From assembly GCA_030430565.1 (NCBI GenBank), contig JAUIKS010000032.1:62001-126000 (forward strand): DNA of 64,000 nt, given 5' to 3'. This stretch comes from Polyangia bacterium (GTDB lineage: Bacteria; Myxococcota_A; Polyangia; Nannocystales; Nannocystaceae). Positions 57,606-58,627 of this stretch are shown in pieces (the stretch's first letter is position 1; each line of letters opens with the position of its first letter). A program made the position numbers and the translations under genes. A model generated the notes under the pieces. That model was not told where the DNA came from. It saw nothing but the letters and a program-made list of their open reading frames with translations, and searched no databases.

Positions 57606-58241
57606 TTATTTCGGGTGCTTCGGACGACGCCCAGGCCGCGAGTCGCCCGGGACCGCGCCCAGCATGTAGCCGAGCCGCATCAGGTTCTTGCCCAGCGACT
57701 GCCGCTCCCTGGCGGTCCGGCTCGAGAAGCCGAAGCTGTCGACGAAGCGCAGGATGACGTTGAACGCGAAGGCGACCAGCAGCGCCTCCTCGATCGCGTC
57801 CCGCGGGACGCCGGCGGCGAGCGGCTTGGCCATGTCATCCGGTCCGAAGCTCTCGGGCGCGCTCGTGAGCCGGGCGAGCATCCCGAGCGTGGCGCGAAGC
57901 TGCTCGTTGATCGGCGCTGTGTCCGGGTCCTCGATGATCGCGTGGACGAGCTTTTCGTCCATGGTCTGCGCCGCGACCGCGGCGTGATCACCCAGTCAGT
58001 ACTCGCAGCTGCTGTGCTTCGCCACGTAGGCCGCCATGATCTCGGCCTCGGCGACGGTCCAGCGCTTCGGCTTGCGCAGCGCGTGATGCAGCAGCGGCGT
58101 GAACTGGCGCCCGAACAGCGCGCGGCGATAGGAGAACACGAGGATCGGGTCGGGCACGTAGCCGACGAGTCGCGTGATCACCCCCAAGAGCATCCGCTGC
58201 AGCGGCCCGAAGCCGTGTTCGAACACGCTGATGCGCGCCAT
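57606..58241 (-). CDS. Probable AhpD/carboxymuconolactone-decarboxylase-like selenoprotein with CxxU motif (211 aa)
   Basis: Translation from ATG 58241 (MARISVFEHGFGPLQRMLLG) reaches YVAKHSSCEY, then an in-frame TGA (57998-57996), and continues without a break as LGDHAAVAAQTMDEKLVHAI to a TAA at 57606. AhpD-like proteins carry CxxC at this point followed by a His; here it reads C79-E-Y-[TGA82]-L-G-D-H, so the TGA replaces the second Cys. A hairpin 11 nt downstream fits a bacterial SECIS element. The likely product is a peroxidase- or thiol-redox-active selenoprotein. Without readthrough both halves lack a complete active site. Its start overlaps the stop of the 58241-58627 gene (ATGA), so translation is coupled. 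Confirmation needs the genome's selA, selB, selC and selD. Confidence 0.8.
57969..57998 (-). promoter_or_regulatory. Sec codon TGA and candidate bacterial SECIS hairpin
   Basis: TGA at 57998-57996 is followed by 11 nt (57995-57985), then CGCCGC (57984-57979), loop GGUC (57978-57975) and GCGGCG (57974-57969): a perfect 6-bp stem with a 4-nt loop. In E. coli fdhF the SelB-binding hairpin also lies about 11 nt after UGA and has GGUC in its loop. The UGA-to-loop distance of 17 nt falls in the range accepted for bacterial SECIS elements. Confidence 0.75.
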
Positions 58242-58627
58242 CAGCGGTCCCTTCCTCGCGTCGCCTGCTCCAGCGCCTCGAGCGCTCGCTCGTGGCGACC
58301 GCGAGCGGCCCCGAGCGCGGCGCACAGCGTGATCTCGAACAGCTCGTCGTCGGTGTAGCCCGTGGCCCTGAGCGCCGCGTAGTCCTCGTCCACGACCTTG
58401 TAGGCGTGTCGCGTGATCTTGTCGACGAGCGTCGTGAGCTCGCTGCGGATCGGGCCCGCGTCTCGCTCGCGCGCGCCGCTTTGAAGCGCCGCGCGGGCCT
58501 CGATCCCGCGTCGCAGCCGCTGCGACGTGTGCCCGGCGGGGCCGTCGAGCAGGCCGCGGACGACTCGCTGAATCATCGCGCGGGCTCGGCTGGTGAAGTC
58601 GTCGCGTCTCGATCTCCGCTGGAGCAT
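58241..58627 (-). CDS. Small helical CMD/AhpD-like protein lacking the redox Cys pair (128 aa)
   Basis: Helical protein with the segment YTDDELFEITLCAALGAARG near the C-terminus, which resembles the second half of carboxymuconolactone-decarboxylase-like domains but with a single Cys and no CxxC. A strong ribosome-binding site (AGAGGAGGA) precedes the ATG, and TACACT further upstream may be the promoter. Its TGA stop overlaps the ATG of the selenoprotein gene by one base, so the two are translated together. It is likely a partner subunit of, or inactive relative to, the selenoprotein. Confidence 0.72.
   Translation of the reverse strand: MLQRRSRRDDFTSRARAMIQRVVRGLLDGPAGHTSQRLRRGIEARAALQSGARERDAGPIRSELTTLVDKITRHAYKVVDEDYAALRATGYTDDELFEITLCAALGAARGRHERALEALEQATRGRDR

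Follow-up and report, generated by a model that had tools for sequence, protein, structure and literature searches.

Organization of the locus

The window, by which we mean the whole 64,000-nucleotide stretch of DNA analysed, carries on its minus strand two overlapping genes that appear to encode AhpD-like proteins (Table 1). The product of the upstream gene, here termed the partner, is composed of AhpD-like helices without a CxxC motif, and its stop codon overlaps the start of the second gene (TGATG). The sequence and translation of the second gene define a frame that begins at an ATG (58241), is preceded by a candidate ribosome-binding site, ends at a TAA (57608-57606) and is interrupted once, by a TGA at 57998-57996; when this codon is counted as a residue the frame stays open over 211 amino acids. 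The TGA sits inside TGC GAG TAC TGA, corresponding to C79-E-Y-U82, and is followed by L-G-D-H86. The original prediction had described a single frame broken only by this TGA, and its coordinates all hold. It was also right to place the codon in a CxxC redox motif, but not at the second position, as the TGA replaces the second cysteine, which is the fourth position of the motif. The prediction was silent on the partner gene, on a second, partner-fused selenoprotein in the same genome and on the weakness of the hairpin when considered alone.

Table 1. Features of the selenoprotein locus, in window coordinates
Feature	Position	Strand	Remarks
Partner gene, AhpD-like helices without CxxC	58241..58627	-	128 aa, upstream of the selenoprotein gene
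Possible ribosome-binding site, GAGGAAGGGA region	58247..58256	-	upstream of the ATG; candidate from sequence reading
Predicted AhpD-like selenoprotein gene	57606..58241	-	211 aa, Sec at residue 82 (CEYU)
UGA predicted to be read as selenocysteine (U82)	57996..57998	-	TGA or Cys codon in homologues
11-nt spacer from UGA to SECIS stem, CTGGGTGATCA	57985..57995	-	sole stem-forming spacing in Sec homologues
Bacterial SECIS hairpin, CGCCGC-GGTC-GCGGCG	57969..57984	-	6 bp, GGUC loop at 57978-57975; covariation, -10.8 kcal/mol

The sequences flanking the TGA display similar conservation, exemplified by identities of 47% and 44% on the two sides to the homologue L011, and coding GC periodicity is evident both before and after the codon. 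The earlier claim that conserved sequence lies on either side of the TGA is thus upheld.

The hairpin downstream of the UGA

A perfect 6-bp stem with a GGUC loop, starting exactly 11 nt past the TGA, was central to the original prediction, and its spacing, stem and loop are confirmed. The SECIS of Escherichia coli fdhF is likewise a short hairpin about 11 nt past the UGA with a GGUC-type loop; it belongs to a different gene and has a different stem, and the two elements are likened by description only. The published bSECIS model specifies a stem of 4-16 bp, a loop of 3-9 nt whose first two positions contain G, a distance of 16-37 nt between UGA and loop, and a minimum free energy of at most -7.5 kcal/mol. 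The window hairpin, with a 4-nt loop, 6 bp, GG, a distance of 17 nt and -10.8 kcal/mol, agrees with this model in every respect, as expected for the bacterial SECIS originally proposed. It should be emphasized that, taken alone, the hairpin is weak evidence. With the peptide HAAVAA held fixed and local codon usage applied, a 6-bp stem has a chance probability of 0.27, which falls to 0.10 if a GGTC loop is required as well, so the structure is not improbable by codon choice (about 10%). Folds starting at the UGA or later contain the hairpin; when 71 nt beginning upstream of the UGA were folded, a different structure resulted that does not include it. An Rfam scan of the region returned nothing relevant. 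When the genome was searched with a covariance model of this particular SECIS, only the window site and its paralogue were recovered, at scores of 45-49 bits, the next score being 24 bits. As the lone hairpin is weak, the genome and the protein family have to decide.

Selenocysteine machinery

The 11.6-Mb genome from which the window derives contains selA, selB, selC and selD, the four genes for which the original prediction had proposed a search. The selC gene specifies a tRNA-Sec with anticodon TCA, and selA, selB and selD are clustered within 5 kb on contig C34. The Sec form of the protein occurs in 41 genomes of the class; SelB was detected in 38 of them, SelA in 38 and at least one of the two in all 41, the genomes without one of them being drafts. 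SelA or SelB was present in 110 of the 277 other class genomes (Fisher p = 2e-15, with phylogeny ignored). The window genome also encodes a second selenoprotein of the same family (L042 2977-3975, contig C19 around 376491). Formate dehydrogenase was considered as another Sec user, and its matches in this genome contained no in-frame stops; they include an alpha subunit (FdhA) homologue that scores above the family cut-off (L167, C64:164190-166289) and, having no in-frame TGA, is not a selenoprotein.

It could be argued that the UGA is read not as Sec but by a near-cognate tRNA, for example that for Trp or Cys, or that the code has been reassigned, as an open frame by itself cannot reveal which residue is inserted. 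The SECIS and the co-occurrence with SelA/SelB, however, are specific to Sec. Furthermore, the partner gene and many homologous genes terminate in UGA, which is thus a stop codon in this lineage. The alternative-code reading was rejected on these grounds, and we regard its probability as negligible.

Comparison of Sec and Cys homologues

Of 318 class genomes, 76 contain homologues, which also occur in other phyla. Once orientation had been corrected, TGA was seen at this codon in 44 loci of the subfamily at class level. The 80 loci from named genome records comprise 32 with TGA and 48 with a Cys codon (TGC/TGT), the former including records from Ktedonobacter, Gemmatimonadota, Planctomycetota and Actinomycetota. 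Because the class-level and named-record sets overlap, they were counted as distinct 36-nt sites, giving 57 Sec and 58 Cys sites. The alignment thus contains both patterns expected of a selenoprotein family under the original prediction, with the TGA either replaced by Cys or kept together with a SECIS. All six base pairs form in 55 of the 57 Sec sites and five in the remaining two, and the full six-pair stem occurs at a spacing of 11 and at no other; only 2 of the 58 Cys sites form all six pairs. In the covariation analysis of 38 sequences every cell was paired (228/228) and three of the pairs had changed on both sides. Double-sided changes numbered 21 in these sequences, compared with 6.0 in shuffles, a control that retains relatedness, and 0-3 when the stem was slid, a control that removes it. 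The comparative hairpin data are therefore far beyond chance.

These data bear on whether the TGA marks a pseudogene, as a genuine nonsense mutation, or is a sequencing error for TGC or TGT. The presence of TGC or TGT at the same codon in some homologues would be compatible with such an error. Against this, the identical TGA is accompanied by the covarying hairpin in dozens of independent genomes, and both halves of the protein are conserved equally. Conservation of the TGA in independent genomes refutes the pseudogene or sequencing-error explanation, which we consider vanishingly improbable. A further possibility is that the UGA ends a short protein, perhaps as a regulated stop, with a downstream product made from the ATG at 57962 or the GTG at 57991. 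Separate open reading frames can indeed be listed, and a ribosome would stop at the UGA without Sec. The Cys homologues, however, are one continuous protein, the TGA precedes active-site His86 and the greater part of the fold, and the hairpin is missing where Cys replaces the TGA. The two-gene explanation was rejected for these reasons and is very unlikely to be correct. We conclude that the locus almost certainly contains a functional AhpD-like selenoprotein gene, the reading to which sequence comparison points. The proposal that the two apparent open reading frames are one selenoprotein gene is supported by the conserved TGA, the covarying SECIS, the sel genes and the continuous Cys homologues. 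Annotation that treats UGA as a stop would split the gene and lose its active site, and many further genomes, myxobacterial and gemmatimonadal ones among them, probably suffer the same mis-splitting.

The stem also dictates the amino acids at positions U+5 and U+9 of the Sec proteins. The residue pairs at these positions in Sec homologues are G/S, A/A, T/V, D/S, S/E and A/V, whereas the Cys homologues contain 22 different pairs with no such linkage. The family is thus a natural experiment in which the hairpin fixes two residues of the protein, and the constraint disappears once Cys replaces Sec. A quick unrooted tree required five Sec/Cys changes, against a mean of 40 when shuffled, and placed a 45-row Cys clade among the Sec rows, with the window protein on a long branch. 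One of the two Cys sites that form all six pairs (L067; genome G094, contig C207) has a TGC codon followed by a complete Sec-type hairpin, and this hairpin is possibly a SECIS relic left after replacement of Sec by Cys; the row is highly divergent and lies near a contig end. Four more distant AhpD-like proteins from other class genomes (L065, L066, L070 and L074) have a CxxU motif encoded with an in-frame TGA; the first three carry a different hairpin, ACGCAG-AGTTT-CTGCGT.

Family assignment and active site

The window protein is divergent, reaching at most 45% identity and falling below Pfam and NCBIfam cut-offs. It matches TIGR01926 with 47.1 bits (E=2.3e-12), under the curated cut-off of 81.8 bits, and a Pfam search produced no match over the cut-off, CMD reaching merely E=0.11. 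With 24.7 bits against a curated cut-off of 175, it is not a member of NF041238. At E<0.001, both TIGR01926 and NF041238 are matched by all 31 aligned family members, and some relatives exceed the TIGR01926 cut-off (such as L057, 101.7 bits, and L103, 91.8 bits). The family profile matches solved AhpD-like proteins, the best being 6k40 (9.6e-28). The predicted structure (pLDDT 88.9) is AhpD-like, with Foldseek probabilities of 1.00 to 6k40, 2pfx and 3c1l, the best PDB match again being 6k40; the debrominase Bmp8 is also among the structural matches.

Residues E67, C79, U82 and H86 are invariant in the 31 aligned sequences (position 82 being U or C), and the spacing E-x11-C-x2-U-x3-H is that of solved AhpD-like proteins. 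The proton relay residues of PA0269 (E36, C48, Y50, C51 and H55) are spaced exactly as E67, C79, Y81, U82 and H86, and the same is true of the relay of Mycobacterium tuberculosis AhpD (E118, C130, H132, C133 and H137) (PMC3141380). Profile matches, the spacing of the active site and the predicted fold thus all bear out the AhpD-like assignment. In many actinobacterial Cys homologues the first Cys is replaced by Ser or Thr and the second is retained, suggesting that Sec/Cys82 is the attacking position. Examples of such T/S-x-x-C proteins are the actinobacterial L105, L112 and L119, and a further one is L050 (G020).

The partner gene

At 88 of 113 loci, from Sec and Cys forms alike and in several phyla, the gene immediately upstream is a homologue of the partner, and the search for conserved neighbours around the homologous loci yielded the partner only. 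The partner profile matches the Sec protein in its C-terminal half, at residues 110-162 (E=1.6e-7). Pfam gave the partner protein no name; its predicted fold (pLDDT 92.9) has weak PDB matches, which are AhpD-like. In three selenoproteins, L042 of this genome, L055 and L057, the partner domain is fused at the C-terminus (E about 1e-20). The gene order, the overlap and the fusions suggest a two-subunit enzyme. The chances are evenly divided that the partner is made and assembled with the selenoprotein as a complex, in which, lacking redox cysteines, it might serve in a structural role or in substrate binding.

Discussion

We propose that SelB carrying Sec-tRNA(Sec) would bind the hairpin starting 11 nt past the UGA, and that Sec would be inserted at residue 82, as the conserved sequence and genome content indicate. 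The mechanism would most likely be that proposed for other AhpD-like proteins: Sec82, activated by a relay of Glu67, Tyr81 and His86, would be the attacking residue, and Cys79 would resolve the resulting selenenic acid or mixed selenosulfide to form a Cys79-Sec82 bond, from which a thiol reductant would regenerate the enzyme. Peroxides or oxidised protein partners are the presumed substrates of this reduction. Gene order and natural fusions suggest that the partner (58627-58241) would be translationally coupled to the selenoprotein, made at the same time and co-assembled with it.

The relay spacing, together with Sec/Cys82 as the attacker, points to peroxide or disulfide reduction as the likely chemistry, a view by analogy that we favour with some reserve. 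The peroxidase activity of PA0269 is weak (PMC3141380), and thus the principal function may be other than peroxide reduction. An alternative is that the selenoprotein acts chiefly as a disulfide reductase or adaptor for another peroxidase, or as a reductive enzyme resembling Bmp8, with the partner forming a substrate pocket. Such a role would accord with the function of M. tuberculosis AhpD as an adaptor for AhpC (PMC3141380), with the structural match to Bmp8 debrominase and with conservation of the partner. However, neither AhpC nor a substrate-pathway gene is conserved nearby, and no substrate is singled out; this alternative is a serious possibility that falls somewhat short of an even prospect. 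The neighbourhood search, which extended to AhpC, thioredoxin and reductase genes, found none of these conserved around the loci.

The original prediction had stated that the AhpD-like superfamily includes CxxU selenoproteins, and this is in accord with the parts of the literature consulted (PMC1088965, PMC2398784, PMC13188914). Such proteins were predicted from Sargasso Sea data in 2005 (PMC1088965) and from GOS data in 2008 (PMC2398784), and AhpD-like selenoproteins are listed under TIGR01926 in Table 1 of a 2026 review (PMC13188914). As these predictions date back to 2005, the window gene adds to a known group. The sections of these three papers that were consulted contain no description of a CxxC-less partner or of the fused form, and no description of selenoproteins in myxobacteria was found in the open-licence papers searched. 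The combination of a catalytic CxxU subunit with a CxxC-less pseudo-AhpD subunit may, with the case equally balanced for and against, constitute a class of heteromeric AhpD-like enzymes not described before.

With the AhpD-like CxxU selenoproteins of COG2128/TIGR01926, as described in those sections, the window protein has in common the CxxU redox site, a bacterial SECIS, Cys homologues and a match to TIGR01926, but it differs in scoring 47 bits against a cut-off of 81.8. NF041238, the AhpD_rel_CFYUT (seleno)protein, is likewise an AhpD relative with CxxU; it differs in being a model of 357 positions, against which the window protein attains 24.7 bits where 175 are required. The solved AhpD-like peroxidase-related proteins 6k40, 2pfx, 3c1l, 2oyo and 2prr have the same fold and length, and in 6k40 a CxxC is aligned at the place of the CxxU; these proteins have Cys instead of Sec and share 18-26% identity with the window protein. 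The window gene is thus a divergent member of the known AhpD-like selenoproteins, and its partner is the less expected part of the locus, the conservation of which offers a way into the function of AhpD-like selenoproteins.
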